A stretch of DNA of 64,000 nucleotides, from contig NZ_CP019082.1 of the NCBI RefSeq assembly GCF_001956985.1, forward strand, positions 4,464,001 to 4,528,000, in the 5' to 3' direction. Origin of the DNA: Paludisphaera borealis (GTDB taxonomy: Bacteria; Planctomycetota; Planctomycetia; Isosphaerales; Isosphaeraceae). The translations under genes and the position numbers were made by a program. Shown here piece after piece: positions 33,743-39,825 of this stretch. How positions within the stretch are numbered: the stretch's first letter is position 1; each line of letters starts with the position of its first letter. The notes beneath the pieces were generated by a model. It had not been told where the DNA came from. It saw only the letters and a program-made list of their open reading frames with translations, and searched no databases.

Positions 33743-36433
33743 TCAAGGGGCTGGTTGTCGGACGCGCGGTCGATAGGGGTTGGGGTCGGGAGGACCCTTC
33801 CGCAGCTCGAACCGCAGCCGGGTCGGCTTGCCGGGGGCGAGCTCGACGGGCTCGCTTTGCGCGGGGGACGCTTCGTAGCCGTACGTTCGGGCGGCGAAGG
33901 GGTCGAACCAGCTCGTGACCGGCTCGCGCATGCCGCCGAAGTGGAAGCGATAACGCCGACCGGGGGCGGGGGCGACCGTAGCGTGCAACTCGCCCTTCTC
34001 GTCCGTCCAGGCCGTCCGCAGCACGGTCGAGACGTCTTCGGCGGACCTGGACTTCTCGTCGGGCGGGCCCTCGGCGGTCCACCAGAAGAAGACGTCGGGC
34101 ATCGGCTTGCCCGTGCCGGTCTCGACGGCTTCGATGATCAATTCGGCGCCGACCTTCTGGCGGATTTCGAGGGGCGAGGGGGTCTCGCCGGGCTTGACGT
34201 CGATGGGATCTTGGTAGGTCGGGAGATAGCGGGAGCGAGCCGGCGGGTTGGAGATGAGATAGACGTGCTCCCCCGGCGGCGAGTGGAGTCGGATCTTGCC
34301 CGCGTCGTCGGTATCGCCTGACTCGGAGGCCCCGAGTTCCGCACGCATCTGAATGTGGGCTCCGGCGACGGGCTTGCCGTCGTCGTCGGCGAGGACGAGC
34401 ACGTCGATCGGCCGGAGCTTCGGGACGGTGATCGTGACCGGACTCGTCCGCGCCTGGTGCGTTCCAAGAAAGATGCTCCCGACGGAGGTCGGTTTGTGGT
34501 CCTGATCCGGCCCGTCGACGGTCGCGGCGAAGAGGCTGAACTCGGTGCGGGTCGACTCGGGACGCGTGACGACGAGCGAGTAGCAGAACCGCTCGGTGAG
34601 CCCTTCGATCCGGAAGCCGCCGTCGGCGCCGGTCTGGGAACGACCGAGGCCGTCGGGCAAGACGTTCCATTCCAAGTCGTCGATATTGCCCGCCTCGCGG
34701 CCGTCGGCGTCGATCTCCGCATGGTTGACGACCCGAACCTTCGCGCCCGGGATCGGCTCGCCTCGTTCGTCGACGATCCGGCCGTGCAGGGCGGCCGCCT
34801 TGCCGAACTTCAGGTCGAGCGTGACGTTGGACTGTAAGAAGAGATGGCCCTGACCGCCGTTCTCATCCAGGTTCTCGGGGTTGAACTGCCACATCGACAA
34901 CCCTCGGCCCCAGGCGATCCCCTTGCCGGGCGCCTCGCCCGAGACGAGGAACCGGATATGGGGGGGCATTGCCTGGTTCGGGAGCAACTTGCTCGAGGTC
35001 AGGACCGGCAGATGGATGCCCCGGAAGTCGTATCCTCCCTCGGCGTCGGTCGTGGTCGTGGCGGCCGGTTTCACACCTTCGCGCGTGACGGCGTAGAGCG
35101 TGACTTTGGCCTTCGCGATCGGCTCGCTCCGCTCGTCGCGCGCCGCGCCCGAGACGCGCGCGGCGATGGTTTCGGGGATCGGCGTGAACAGGTAAGGCTC
35201 GGGGCTGCCCGGCGCGATCGCCATCTTCGTGAACGCCCTCCCGACCTTGGGCGCCTGTCGGCCGCGCTCCGGAGCGGCCGGAGCGTGCTTCGCCTCGGGC
35301 TGCTGGGGATGCGGTGGGACGAACGTGTTCTGAAGCTCGACCACGGCTTGCTTGCGGAGCCCGGGGTATCGCTCGGTCCAGAGGGCGTTGTATTTCGCCG
35401 ACAGCTCGGCCTTGCGCCGCTCCAGGGCCTTGCGGGCCGGGCCGTCCTGGACCTTGGCGGTTTCAAGGTCCGTCGCGGACATCTCCTCCATCAAGGGGGC
35501 GACGTCGGGGGCGTTCGCGAAATCCTGGCCGATGCGGGCGTCAACGCGCCACGGCGCGAACTCGTCCGCACCGGTGAGGATGCGCCGACGGAACTCGTCG
35601 TAGTGCTCGCTCCAGGCGGCGTGATACTTCGTCCACAACTCGTCCTGGCGTTTCTCAGCGGCCGCGAGAGCCGGGTCGAGACGTCCTCGGCCCGCTCTCC
35701 TGGCTTCCACCACATCGCGATCGGCCGCCTGGACATCCCATATCAGCCGTCCCAGGGCGGGGTCGCGTTGGAACTCACTGGTGATCTTGCCTTCGAGATC
35801 GTCCGGCGCGCCTTCCTTGATATTGGCGAGCACCCGCCGACGAAGCTCGGCATAGCGCTCGTTCCAAAGCGTGTTGTACTTCGCAGTAAGATCGGACTTC
35901 AGCTCCGCGGCGGCCTTGAAAGCCGCATCCGCATGGCCGCGCCCCTCATTGGCGAGCCGGTCGATATCCTGATCCACGGCGACGATGGATTGGACCAAGG
36001 CGGAGACGATGGAGTCGGCCTTGAACAGGCTTTGGATTCGGGCTTCGAGTTCCAGGTCGCGCGGAGCTTCCGCGATCACCTCGGCGGGCGCCCGCCGACG
36101 GATCTCGTCGTAACGCTCGGTCCAGAGGGCGAAGTATTTCGCCATCAACTGATCCTTGCGCGTTGCGATCGCCTTGACGGCCGGCTCGGCGTCCGCCCGG
36201 CCCGCGCTCCGAGCGTCGTAGTATTCTCCGTCCGTCGCGATGACGTCGCGGATCAAGGCGGCGACGTCGGGGGTGCGTTGGAATTCGCCCTGAATCCAGG
36301 CGTGGAGCTGTTCCGGCGACCATCGAGGGGATGCGGGGCTTTTCCCCTGCTCCTGACAGTATGCGGCGAACACGATCGCCGGGACGGCCAGGGTCGAAGC
36401 GACGAGGGCGATGGCGGAGCGCGAGGCCTTCAT
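33743..36433 (-). CDS. Secreted protein: four-copy repeat domain plus carboxypeptidase-regulatory-like domains
   Basis: 896 residues from the ATG at 36433, with GGAGGAACCCGCC directly upstream. A signal or anchor helix (MKASRSAIALVASTLAVPAI) is followed by four related ~84-residue units at ~44-114, 129-200, 213-284 and 297-361. Each has F-x3-P...L near its start and ends in K-Y-x-x-(L/A)-W-x-E-x-Y-x-x-(L/I/F)-R-(R/K); no known domain recognised. From ~420 come carboxypeptidase-regulatory/CNA-B-like domains (ETIAARVSGAARDE; GRIVDERGEPIPGAKVRVVN; RPIDVLVLADDDGKPVAGAH), ending EPVELAPGKPTRLRFELRKG. The C-terminal ~470 residues are a paralog of the BlaR1-type protein encoded next upstream. The frame upstream of the start keeps a remnant of its M56 domain. 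Probably periplasmic. Confidence 0.85.
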   Translation of the reverse strand: MKASRSAIALVASTLAVPAIVFAAYCQEQGKSPASPRWSPEQLHAWIQGEFQRTPDVAALIRDVIATDGEYYDARSAGRADAEPAVKAIATRKDQLMAKYFALWTERYDEIRRRAPAEVIAEAPRDLELEARIQSLFKADSIVSALVQSIVAVDQDIDRLANEGRGHADAAFKAAAELKSDLTAKYNTLWNERYAELRRRVLANIKEGAPDDLEGKITSEFQRDPALGRLIWDVQAADRDVVEARRAGRGRLDPALAAAEKRQDELWTKYHAAWSEHYDEFRRRILTGADEFAPWRVDARIGQDFANAPDVAPLMEEMSATDLETAKVQDGPARKALERRKAELSAKYNALWTERYPGLRKQAVVELQNTFVPPHPQQPEAKHAPAAPERGRQAPKVGRAFTKMAIAPGSPEPYLFTPIPETIAARVSGAARDERSEPIAKAKVTLYAVTREGVKPAATTTTDAEGGYDFRGIHLPVLTSSKLLPNQAMPPHIRFLVSGEAPGKGIAWGRGLSMWQFNPENLDENGGQGHLFLQSNVTLDLKFGKAAALHGRIVDERGEPIPGAKVRVVNHAEIDADGREAGNIDDLEWNVLPDGLGRSQTGADGGFRIEGLTERFCYSLVVTRPESTRTEFSLFAATVDGPDQDHKPTSVGSIFLGTHQARTSPVTITVPKLRPIDVLVLADDDGKPVAGAHIQMRAELGASESGDTDDAGKIRLHSPPGEHVYLISNPPARSRYLPTYQDPIDVKPGETPSPLEIRQKVGAELIIEAVETGTGKPMPDVFFWWTAEGPPDEKSRSAEDVSTVLRTAWTDEKGELHATVAPAPGRRYRFHFGGMREPVTSWFDPFAARTYGYEASPAQSEPVELAPGKPTRLRFELRKGPPDPNPYRPRVRQPAP

Positions 36434-36490
36434 GGCGGGTTCCTCCAGGTTGAGGATGCGACCGACGCGATCGTGGCAGTGCTCGCGCTC
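36434..36490 (-). pseudogene. Remnant of an M56 (BlaR1) peptidase domain
   Basis: In frame directly before the ATG at 36433, 19 codons read EREHCHDRVGRILNLEEPA. The intact gene upstream has REREHCCDRI at its residues 266-273 and, ~45 residues later, DRIRRILNPEEPAM. The remnant joins these two pieces, so a paralog has lost the intervening segment and everything before EREHC. The upstream break lies just to the right (36491 onward), in a region with the dispersed hairpin repeat. Confidence 0.75.
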
Positions 36491-36596
36491 GTCACCTCTG
36501 ACTGGGCTCATTGTCGCCGGAGCGATGCGTGGGGTCAAATCGCTCTGCATCGTCGAGAGACGAATCCGGCTCGCCGCCCGGCCGGCCAGGTCCGAA

Positions 36597-36675
36597 TACA
36601 AGCTCGAAGCGCCAGCGAGTGAATTCCCGAGCCGAGCACCGGGGAACATTCACTCGCTGGCGCTTCGAGCTTGTA
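36597..36675. repeat. Dispersed hairpin, CCCGAAGCGCCAGCGAGTG family
   Basis: Inverted arms (CGAAGCGCCAGCGAGTGAAT and its complement) flank a ~24-base middle, bounded by TACAAGCT and AGCTTGTA. The bases just before it (CCAGGTCCGAATAC) are shared with the copy at 48467, so the repeat unit extends leftward. A half copy lacking its right arm is at 36745-36771 (AGCCCGAAGCGCAAGCGAGT). The rest of the 363-base gap 36434-36796 shows nothing else besides the M56 remnant. Confidence 0.85.
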
Positions 36676-36796
36676 TCGGTGCATGCCCTCGCGGGAGTAT
36701 TTTCAGAGCAATCGGTCATGCCGCCCACGGACCGGAGTTTTCATGGCAGCCCGAAGCGCAAGCGAGTGAATGGTTTTGCGTTTGCTGATGTGGTGA

Positions 36797-39415
36797 TTAA
36801 GACGCCTTCCCCTTCCGCAGCTCGAACCGCAGCCGGATCGGCTTGCCGGGGACGAGTTCGACGGGCTCGCTCTGGGCGGGGGTGGCTTCGTAGCCGTGCT
36901 TCTCGGGGGCCGCCGGCGAGAACCAGTCTCGGTTCGGCGCGCCCATGCCGCCGAAGAAGAAGCGATGGCGACGGCCGGGCCTGGGAGTGAGCAGGCCGCG
37001 GAGTTCGCCTTTTTCGTTCGTCGAGGTCCGCTCCAGAACCTCCACGAGATCGTCGCCGGGTTCGATCTTTTGGTCGGGCTGGTCGTCGTCGGTCCACCAG
37101 AAGAAGACGCCGGGGATCGGCTTGCCCGTGCCGGCCTCGACGGCTTCGATGATCAATTCGGCGCCGGGCTTCTGGCGGATTTCGAGCGGCAGGGGGGCGT
37201 CGCCGGCCTCGACGACCAGGGGGCCTCGGTTGGTACGAAGATAGCGTGAGTTCTTCGGCGGGCTCGAGCCCGTAACCGCGTATTCGCCCGGCGGCAGGCC
37301 GAGGCGGGCCTTGCCCGAGGCGTCTGTGATTCCCTCCGCGACGAAACCGGTCGACCACCACGGGCTGCCCAGACGGACGTCGGCGCCGGCGACCGGCTTG
37401 CCGTCGTCGTCGCCCACGACCGACACGTCGATCTGACGTACGTTCGGAAATTTGATGATAAGTGGATTCGTCCGCGCCTGGTGGGATCGGGGCGCGAAGT
37501 CGGGCCCTATGGGCGGCTCCTCGTGCGTCGCGTCCGGGCCGTCGATGGTCGCGGCGCGGAGGCTGAGCATCGTGTTCGGCGACTCGGGGCGATTCACGTT
37601 GAGGTAGTAGCAGAATCGCTCGGAGAGCCCTTCGAGCCGGAAACCGCCGTCGGCGCTGGTGGTCGTCCTGCCGACGCCGTCGGGCGGGAGGCGCCAATCG
37701 TATCCTTGGAAGACGCCCGTCTCGCGCCCCTCCGCGTCGAGCGAAATGGCGGTGCCTACTTGAACCTTCGCGCCGGCGACCGGCTCGCCGCGCTCGTTGA
37801 CCACCTTGCCCTGGAGGACGGCCGCCTTGGCGAACGTCAGATCGAGCGAGACGGGCTCGCCCAACGGCAATCGCCCCTGGATGTCATTCGGATGAGGATT
37901 CTTGACCGCGTAAATCGACGGCTGCTTGCTCCAGGCGATCCCCATGCCGGGCGCCTGGCCGAGAATGAAGCACGGGGCGTGGGGCGTCTGTTCCTTGGGG
38001 AACGGGTGGCCGTTGAACGAGGTCCAGACAGACAGGCGGGCGTCGCGGAATTCGTAGCGACCGGAGGCGTCGGCCACAGTCGTGGCGACCGGCCTCATTT
38101 TCAGGCCTTCGCTCGTGATGGTGTAAAGCGTGAGGCTCGCCCCCGCCACCGGCTCGCCCTGTTCGTCGCGGGCGACCCCCGACACGTTGACGGGTATCGA
38201 TTCGGGAATTGGTCCTGGCTCCCAAGATCCGGCGTCGGGCTTGATCGCCGCCTTCTTCACGTACCGCTCCCCACTCGATTGTCTCGGTTGGCGGAAATCG
38301 GGGACGAACGGCTTCGCCTCCGCGTTCGTCTCGGGCGGCTGGGACGACGGCTGCTGCCCGTAAGCGACGAGCAACAGCGCGGGGACGGCCAAGGTGGATG
38401 CGGCGAGGGCGACGGCGGATCGCGAGAGCTGCATGGCGGGTTCCTCCGGGTTGAGGATGCGACGGATGCGGTCGACGAGGTGGTTCTGGGCCATGAACGC
38501 CCCGTGGGGGAACGGAGCGCCGGGGGACGGGGCGTCGGCGAGGACGAACAGGGCGCCGGCGTAGTCGAGCGCGCGGCCGGTGTGGTCGACGACGATGCGG
38601 TCGCAGCAGTGCTCGCGCTCGCGGCGGACCCAGCCCGACACGATCCAGACGGCCGGATGGAAGAACAGGGCCGATTCGATCACGCGCTGAAGCAGGTTCA
38701 CGAGGTTATCCCACCGCCGGACGTGGGCCAGCTCGTGGAGCAGGGCCATCTCGACCTGCTCGGGACTCCAGCCCGAAACGGCCGACGCCGGCAGCAGGAT
38801 CAACGGCCGCGCGATTCCCAGGAGCATCGGCCCGGCGATCCGGTCGCAGACGCCGACGGCCACCCGCCGGCCGATCCCCAACGACCCGGCCAGGCGCGCC
38901 GAGAGCGCTGACAAATCGGGATCGCCCACGACCCGACTGCGCTGCTTCAGTCGCTCGGCGCCGAGCAATCCGGCGGCGAGATACGCGAACGTCCAGGGCG
39001 CGCCCAGAAGCCACACGCCGGGCAACGTCCGCGCGGCGAGGTTCATATAAATAATGACGTGCGAATTAAGCGATGCATCTCGCGACGGTACGACGATGGA
39101 CTCGCCGCGCTTCGGGGCCGGGAGGGCCGGGGCGAACGCGATCGGAGGGGCGGTCAACGCCTTGGATTCCCTCGGAATCGCGACGGCCGATCGCGGTCCG
39201 TCGGCGATCGTCCAGGCGATGGCGGCGGGGGCGAGGGCCAGGGCGGCGAGCGTCGCCAGCGCGAAGGCGTGGCGGACGTCGGGATGGGCCCTCCGCATCG
39301 CCCGGCGGCCGATCGCGGCGAGGGCGGTCAGCGCGGCGCCGACCCAGAGGAAATGGAGCATGGTCCAGCCGGCGGCGGTCCAGGCCGGCGAGTTCGCCCA
39401 GGTCGAGACGTTCAT
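36797..39415 (-). CDS. BlaR1-type M56 metallopeptidase with carboxypeptidase-regulatory tail
   Basis: 872 residues. Membrane helices at ~13-35, ~50-70, ~130-152 and later anchor an M56 peptidase domain with zinc motif HELAH (227-231), RRWDNLVNLLQRVIESALFF and REREHCCDR (266-272, supplying the third ligand). After the domain, a fifth hydrophobic segment (~332-350) leads to ~500 residues of carboxypeptidase-regulatory/CNA-B-like outer domains (GVARDEQGEPVAGASLTLYT; GKVVNERGEPVAGAKVQVGT). Family knowledge: M56 sensors cut the BlaI repressor on receiving a signal. The ATG overlaps the BlaI stop (ATGA), so the two are co-translated. At M328 an internal ATG (38434) has GGAGGAACCCGCC before it, the same sequence that starts the neighbouring paralog. 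Confidence 0.88.
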   Translation of the reverse strand: MNVSTWANSPAWTAAGWTMLHFLWVGAALTALAAIGRRAMRRAHPDVRHAFALATLAALALAPAAIAWTIADGPRSAVAIPRESKALTAPPIAFAPALPAPKRGESIVVPSRDASLNSHVIIYMNLAARTLPGVWLLGAPWTFAYLAAGLLGAERLKQRSRVVGDPDLSALSARLAGSLGIGRRVAVGVCDRIAGPMLLGIARPLILLPASAVSGWSPEQVEMALLHELAHVRRWDNLVNLLQRVIESALFFHPAVWIVSGWVRREREHCCDRIVVDHTGRALDYAGALFVLADAPSPGAPFPHGAFMAQNHLVDRIRRILNPEEPAMQLSRSAVALAASTLAVPALLLVAYGQQPSSQPPETNAEAKPFVPDFRQPRQSSGERYVKKAAIKPDAGSWEPGPIPESIPVNVSGVARDEQGEPVAGASLTLYTITSEGLKMRPVATTVADASGRYEFRDARLSVWTSFNGHPFPKEQTPHAPCFILGQAPGMGIAWSKQPSIYAVKNPHPNDIQGRLPLGEPVSLDLTFAKAAVLQGKVVNERGEPVAGAKVQVGTAISLDAEGRETGVFQGYDWRLPPDGVGRTTTSADGGFRLEGLSERFCYYLNVNRPESPNTMLSLRAATIDGPDATHEEPPIGPDFAPRSHQARTNPLIIKFPNVRQIDVSVVGDDDGKPVAGADVRLGSPWWSTGFVAEGITDASGKARLGLPPGEYAVTGSSPPKNSRYLRTNRGPLVVEAGDAPLPLEIRQKPGAELIIEAVEAGTGKPIPGVFFWWTDDDQPDQKIEPGDDLVEVLERTSTNEKGELRGLLTPRPGRRHRFFFGGMGAPNRDWFSPAAPEKHGYEATPAQSEPVELVPGKPIRLRFELRKGKAS

Positions 39416-39825
39416 GCGTCGGCCTCCCGCTTCTTGGATCGCGGCTTTTCACTCTTCTCGTCGAGCAGGCGACGGATCTCGTCGCGGTCGCGCGGGCTGA
39501 GCTTGCCGGCTTCGAGCATGTGGGCCACCAACCCCTGGGCCGAGCCGTCGAAGGCCAGGTCCAGCAGCTTGCCCACCAGGCCCGACCGGGCCGATTTGCG
39601 GCTCACCCTGGCCGACCAAAGATAGCCTTTCGGGCCGTCGGCGCGCTCGACCAGCCCCTTGTCGAGCATCAGCTTCAGCATCGTCGCCACCGTGGTCGAC
39701 GCCACCGCCCGCTTGCTCTGCAAGGCCGCGCGCACCGTCCCCAGGTCGACCGGCCCCGCGTCCCACAACACGTTCAAGATCTCCAGCTCACCGTCCGTCG
39801 GCTGCATGCTCGGCGTTCTGGCCAT
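39412..39825 (-). CDS. BlaI/MecI/CopY family transcriptional repressor
   Basis: 137 residues from the ATG at 39825 (GGGAGGGA upstream). A winged-helix DNA-binding domain of BlaI type: PTDGELEILNVLWDAGPVDL, TVRAALQSKRAVASTTVATM, LKLMLDKGLVERADGPKGYL. It is followed by the dimerisation half (LVGKLLDLAFDGSAQGLVAH; SPRDRDEIRRLLDEK). The family binds a palindromic operator as a dimer and is inactivated by cleavage from its M56 partner. It is the first gene of a unit with that partner, and a candidate operator lies 44 bases upstream. Confidence 0.92.
   Translation of the reverse strand: MARTPSMQPTDGELEILNVLWDAGPVDLGTVRAALQSKRAVASTTVATMLKLMLDKGLVERADGPKGYLWSARVSRKSARSGLVGKLLDLAFDGSAQGLVAHMLEAGKLSPRDRDEIRRLLDEKSEKPRSKKREADA

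Follow-up and report, generated by a model that had tools for sequence, protein, structure and literature searches.

A BlaR1-like receptor gene and its truncated paralog

The window, which is the whole stretch of 64 000 nucleotides that was analysed, carries a gene of 872 codons whose full-length product is an M56/BlaR1-like receptor-protease (36797..39415, minus strand, as for all features below; assigned by reading frame, Pfam and Foldseek). The protein was matched by Peptidase_M56 (PF05569, 7e-28, 98 bits with a cut-off of 31) and by CarboxypepD_reg (3e-20), which denotes carboxypeptidase-regulatory-like outer domains. A BlaI-type repressor gene (39412..39825; Penicillinase_R, 6e-25) precedes it, the stop codon overlapping the M56 start (ATGA), and the 3′ end of blaI contains the SD region (GGGAGGCCGACGC, 39416..39428) that precedes the full-length start, the ATG at 39415. 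The zinc-protease motif HELAH occupies residues 227–231 (38723..38737, read from the sequence); the two His and the Glu of HExxH did not vary across the 25 rows of alignment A1 (see below). A BlaI-like gene was present upstream on the same strand at 37 of the 38 subfamily loci with at least 700 nt of upstream sequence.

A structure model of residues 1–382 was built from 13 sequences (the window sequence and named records; mean pLDDT 79.9). It places helix alpha9, with the conserved RIRRIL and supported also by alignment, at residues 303–321 (38453..38509), a coil containing PEEPAMQLSR at 322–331 and TM4 at 332–353 (38357..38422, from the model and the BlaR1 alignment), with pLDDT values of only about 60–70 for coil and TM4. 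Foldseek returned six PDB matches under E 0.001, every one a BlaR1 and the best being S. aureus BlaR1, with modest TM-scores (best 0.46 by query length). Alignment with S. aureus BlaR1 (8exs/8exp) identifies the helix that follows codon 328 as the final membrane helix. The sequence-only reading had called it a 'signal-like helix', and this is corrected here: it is TM4 of the M56 domain. Met328 is predicted by the model to lie in the coil between alpha9 and TM4, 4 residues ahead of TM4; S. aureus BlaR1 has Leu at this position. Three criteria, namely an M56 domain with HExxH, a BlaR1 fold with TM4 and an adjacent BlaI, were all satisfied by the window gene. The sensor-domain criterion failed, with no Pfam match to a penicillin-binding (transpeptidase-like) sensor domain in the window protein, and the gene is BlaR1-like but not a BlaR1 beta-lactam sensor proper.

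The ATG at 38434 (38432..38434) is codon 328 of the M56 gene and is preceded by the SD-like GGAGGAACCCGCC (38435..38447), as had been claimed; 545 codons remain behind it (36797..38434), which would encode TM4 and the outer domain as a second product inferred from reading frame, Pfam and conservation. Anti-SD duplex energies were −10.3 kcal/mol for the gene's own start at 39415, −9.5 kcal/mol at 38434 and −9.3 kcal/mol at 36433, the start of a paralog, so that by this measure the window gene bears two canonical start signals, 39415 and 38434. The anti-SD CCTCC was found at three 16S ends of the same genome. Two exact copies of GGAGGAACCCGCC were present in the window, 38435–38447 and 36434–36446, and no others; with two mismatches allowed there were 7 matches, versus 6.1 expected by shuffling. 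The pattern GGAGG-N5-10-ATG occurred 12 times in the window on both strands, and a single SD-ATG instance is therefore not beyond chance. The weight for the internal start rests on conservation and not on the lone window instance. A chance origin of the internal SD-ATG was considered and was ruled out by conservation among relatives; the instance in the window alone would not have sufficed.

The paralog is a free-standing gene of 896 residues (33743..36433; reading frame, Pfam, identity) that uses the same ATG as its start and shares 53% identity over 491 residues with the intact gene's outer domain; its SD region lies at 36434..36446. The claims that it opens with the same SD-ATG and that it is a free-standing copy of the second product both held, the latter on frame, M56 remnant and tree, and the cause of the shared start is common descent. 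The paralog's frame extends upstream of 36433 through EREHCHDRVGRILNLEEPA (36434..36490), an M56 C-terminus in shortened form, and it is therefore a truncated copy with an inherited SD. The identical SDs at 38434 and 36433 thus reflect homology and are not a second independent observation; an independent origin of the paralog start was rejected because the M56 remnant marks a truncated copy. Starts farther upstream were also rejected, as the in-frame ATGs at 36649, 36550 and 36511 are weak (SD −0.7, −3.3 and −1.7, respectively; only ATGs were scored). An inverted repeat (36577–36695) lies in the region of these upstream ATGs. Together with 36748–36772 it forms a set of inverted REP-like repeats (AGCTCGAAGCGCCAGCGAGTGAAT type) between the truncated paralog and the intact gene. 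The paralog also contains four diverged repeats (35355–36184, spacing 234–258 nt, or about 78–86 codons), located between TM helix and outer domain and missing from the intact gene.

A second free-standing outer gene starting at the junction (L011) was found in another genus (G023). Its neighbours are TPP-enzyme-like and ABC-permease-like genes (translations read by eye), and no M56 gene was present among the ORFs listed around it. In the tree the window pair groups together (100/99) with L011 outside, and the two free-standing genes are not sisters. The simplest reading is that the M56 part was lost twice, separately, at the same junction, although later fusion has not been ruled out.

Conservation and strength of the internal start signal

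Alignment A1 comprised 25 rows picked for Met in the junction column, five duplicates being dropped; L011 and L031 were kept out since they have the Met but are not M56 genes. Its profile was run with hmmsearch against overlapping sets of 45 own-family, 392 phylum and 397 class genomes, and against further overlapping sets from the family of G572 (43 genomes), that of G549 (170) and the class of G202 (12). From the 130 loci collected, 55 distinct genes scored at least 281 bits and reached the junction, genes identical in the 70 residues around it being counted as duplicates. Adhaeretor mobilis and Singulisphaera sp. GP187, both in culture, are among the organisms that contributed genes. Outside the 55, the column was not reached in L030 and L089 (one gene, at a contig end) or in L115 and L125 (the broken gene of genome G464, described below).

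ATG was present at the junction in all 55 subfamily genes, the window gene counted, versus Met in none of 27 more distant M56 genes (L130 at 253 bits and 26 lower-scoring). The genes with Met scored at least 281 bits and those without it at most 253; the selection of A1 for Met concerns one column of 351 and is not expected to account for this gap. Thinning by identity was the sole correction for kinship among the 55. The invariant Met has variable neighbours: 10 different residues occur at −1 and 9 at +1. An in-frame ATG or GTG with an SD within 12 codons was found in 54 of the 55 subfamily genes and in 5 of the 27 other M56 genes. In two subfamily genes just 32 and 27 codons separate the ATG, still present, from the stop; their contigs end 129 and 124 nt past the stops, so it is uncertain whether the outer part has truly been lost.

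Synonymous randomisation was applied to the six codons before the ATG, using each gene's own codon usage, in 1000 rounds. The mean SD energy was −8.41 observed versus −5.74 ± 0.37 randomised, and no round was as strong. After thinning at 70, 60, 55 and 50% identity (46, 29, 11 and 10 genes) the observed value was reached in 0, 0, 0 and 14 of 1000 rounds, respectively, the signal at 50% being modest (z −2.2). The same randomisation at seven shifted places (200 rounds each) gave no excess; at 10 codons on either side of the junction SDs were weaker than expected. Glu codons at −5 to −3 were GAG in 52 and GAA in 8 cases, versus 1572 : 1273 elsewhere in the same ORFs. The SD was weaker than −5 kcal/mol in 2 of the 55 genes and weaker than −6 kcal/mol in 13. 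Relatives keeping the protein without SD or ATG would have refuted an internal start; with an SD of −5 kcal/mol or stronger in 53/55 and the ATG in every gene, it was not refuted.

Other positions in the same genes served as comparison. An SD reaching −6 was found at 76% of junctions versus 9.1% of 740 other in-frame ATGs (real starts included). As a yardstick at the gene N-terminus, the mean was −7.7 when the best among several candidate starts was taken (n = 40) and −5.3 for the nearest ATG (n = 39). When the 340 profile columns having 40 rows or more were scanned, columns 327 and 328 ranked first, with an SD of −5 or stronger in 96% of genes. Next came 326 and 329 (85%), whose SD is the same one, and then a column at 41%; other Met-rich columns gave 4/39, 9/51 and 5/40. 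The mRNA from −18 to +33 was less structured than its synonymous versions (−9.42 versus −11.45 ± 0.39, 60 randomisations). The SD-ATG spacing was 8 nt in 40/55, 5 nt in 11/55 and 7, 9 or 10 nt in four. SD and start codon are thus conserved, at initiation spacing and beyond the amino-acid constraint, which meets the criterion for a gene within a gene.

A constraint on the protein could be offered instead: a motif E-[DE]-x-x-M in the loop that joins alpha9 to TM4 might be needed for folding, autocleavage or TM4 insertion, the SD-like codons being accidental. For this speak the Glu at −4 in 44/55 and the Asp or Glu at −3 in 48/55, the −5.7 kcal/mol already reached by random synonymous codons for the same amino acids, and the Met retained in the two genes with tails of 27–32 codons. 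Against it, the SD exceeds what the amino acids require (0/1000) and GAG is preferred over GAA. Where Glu at −4 is missing (eleven genes), SD energies still range from −4.9 to −10.3, in part in a different register (1/1000), and SD-like purine runs are kept by means of AAG, GGA, AGG or shifted codons. The Met is moreover invariant amid variable residues in a predicted coil where S. aureus BlaR1 has Leu. This explanation was considered unlikely.

Less probable still is an SD-like pause site, at which elongating ribosomes would stall before TM4 and so aid membrane insertion without any new start. SD-like pause elements have been reported in E. coli mRNAs for membrane proteins (PMC4359368). An ATG is not needed for pausing, yet every subfamily gene has one, mostly 8 or 5 nt away; free-standing genes begin at the junction, and 22 of the 27 distant M56 genes have no such site.

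A proposed second product from the internal start

The reading preferred here is a conserved gene within a gene that yields the full receptor and a separate outer protein, either TM4-anchored or secreted. It is held to be likely (probability about 0.78), with use of the start and the short product inferred in the absence of expression data. The earlier claim that the intact gene gives two products is accordingly supported by conservation, spacing and synonymous constraint, which are shown together with the sequence itself and the natural free-standing forms; initiation by ribosomes is not shown.

Under this gene-within-gene reading, translation from 39415 would give a BlaR1-like receptor with membrane helices, a cytoplasmic zinc protease, TM4 and the outer domain, paired with the BlaI-type repressor. 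Some ribosomes would initiate at 38434 on the conserved SD-ATG and make TM4 and the outer domain only. The short product would be exported with TM4 as its signal anchor, or cleaved in the manner of a signal peptide. Its role is likewise inferred, without expression data: it may be a separate exported protein working without the protease, or it may pair or compete with the full receptor.

The window gene resembles BlaR1/MecR1 (M56) with BlaI in its M56 domain, HExxH, TM4 followed by an outer domain, and the BlaI-like gene upstream. In S. aureus BlaR1, outer fragments are released by autocleavage at S283/F284 and, behind TM4, by signal peptidase acting at G331/Q332 (PMC9834060), whereas here the outer part would come from a second start 4 residues before TM4. 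The outer domains also differ, none of those listed being penicillin-binding, and BlaR1 alpha9 supplies Arg294 to the partner's protease site, while the proposed short product would have no alpha9. In RpnL/RpnS, too, the C-terminal part is made from an internal RBS and start, shown there by mutation (PMC10327210), but these are nucleases whose antitoxins are intragenic, and neither the protein nor its role is related. An internal start likewise gives a separate subunit in Cas10d/Cas11d (as described in PMC10327210); that protein is unrelated and its short product joins the full-length complex. CheA-short is a signal-transduction protein with an in-frame internal start; CheA differs in being a soluble kinase whose short form omits the N-terminal part only. 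Nothing was found in the literature searched for BlaR1 with 'internal translation initiation' or 'internal start'. One paper (PMC5397173, with one planctomycete in its tables) places Planctomycetes among the phyla in which SD genes make up only a small fraction, and a kept SD would therefore be more telling.

If the start is used, this Planctomycetota branch of BlaR1-like genes makes two proteins per gene, missed by annotation of one protein per ORF. The arrangement would parallel, at the level of translation, the proteolytic outer fragments of S. aureus BlaR1 and offer a ready system for testing the interaction of a receptor with a free outer domain.

Outer domains behind the junction

Genome G464 (one contig; L137, 2587–5521) has a frame break: the M56 frame leaves shortly before the junction and stops behind it, and the outer ORF runs for 640 codons from the internal ATG (SD −9.3) in another frame than M56. 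As read from the sequence, this outer domain can be reached only from the internal ATG, though sequencing error is not excluded. The arrangement is what would be expected if the outer part owns its start, with the same reservation about sequencing error.

A Pfam scan at E 0.001 was performed on 53 subfamily outer parts, two being omitted as too short and many truncated near 520 residues by the flank that had been retrieved. Among 25 of the 30 families obtained were TPR models (up to 5 members per model), HlyD (3) and Poly_export (3), with single members of thioredoxin, SBP_bac_10 and CarboxypepD_reg; a penicillin-binding domain was absent from these 25. Individual M56/BlaR1-like proteins carried HlyD (L095, L101, L123), Poly_export (L124) or thioredoxin (L047) as outer part.

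One junction with diverse outer domains behind it would also suit a fusion relic, in which an M56 gene was fused to a downstream gene for an exported protein and the old start has not decayed. TM4, however, belongs to the BlaR1 fold, and a decayed start would be expected, yet the SD is above synonymous expectation in genes at most 55% identical; a relic is regarded as very improbable.

To return to the gene within a gene, HlyD adaptors and export proteins usually act as free, exported proteins, and a separate outer product therefore fits them. No transporter was recognised (translations read by eye) beside two HlyD-type genes, L123 (the third HlyD) and one gene with an export domain, nor was one found when 8 neighbouring ORFs of these loci were scanned. 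The missing transporter neighbours may speak against HlyD-type outer parts as free transport adaptors. A bolder reading, the 'cargo port', is offered only as a possibility: varied exported proteins (TPR, HlyD adaptor, polysaccharide-export, thioredoxin) would stand behind one conserved internal start, each locus making a tethered sensor copy and a free working copy from one mRNA, and the receptor would monitor its own product's state, signalling it through BlaI.

In other genomes of the family, relatives of the window gene's outer domain were also observed as fusions to sigma factors with a hydrophobic helix (L018, L031, L036, L134, L135 and L136). Sigma70_r2, r4_2 and CarboxypepD_reg were matched by Pfam in L134; the other five sigma fusions were read from translations only.
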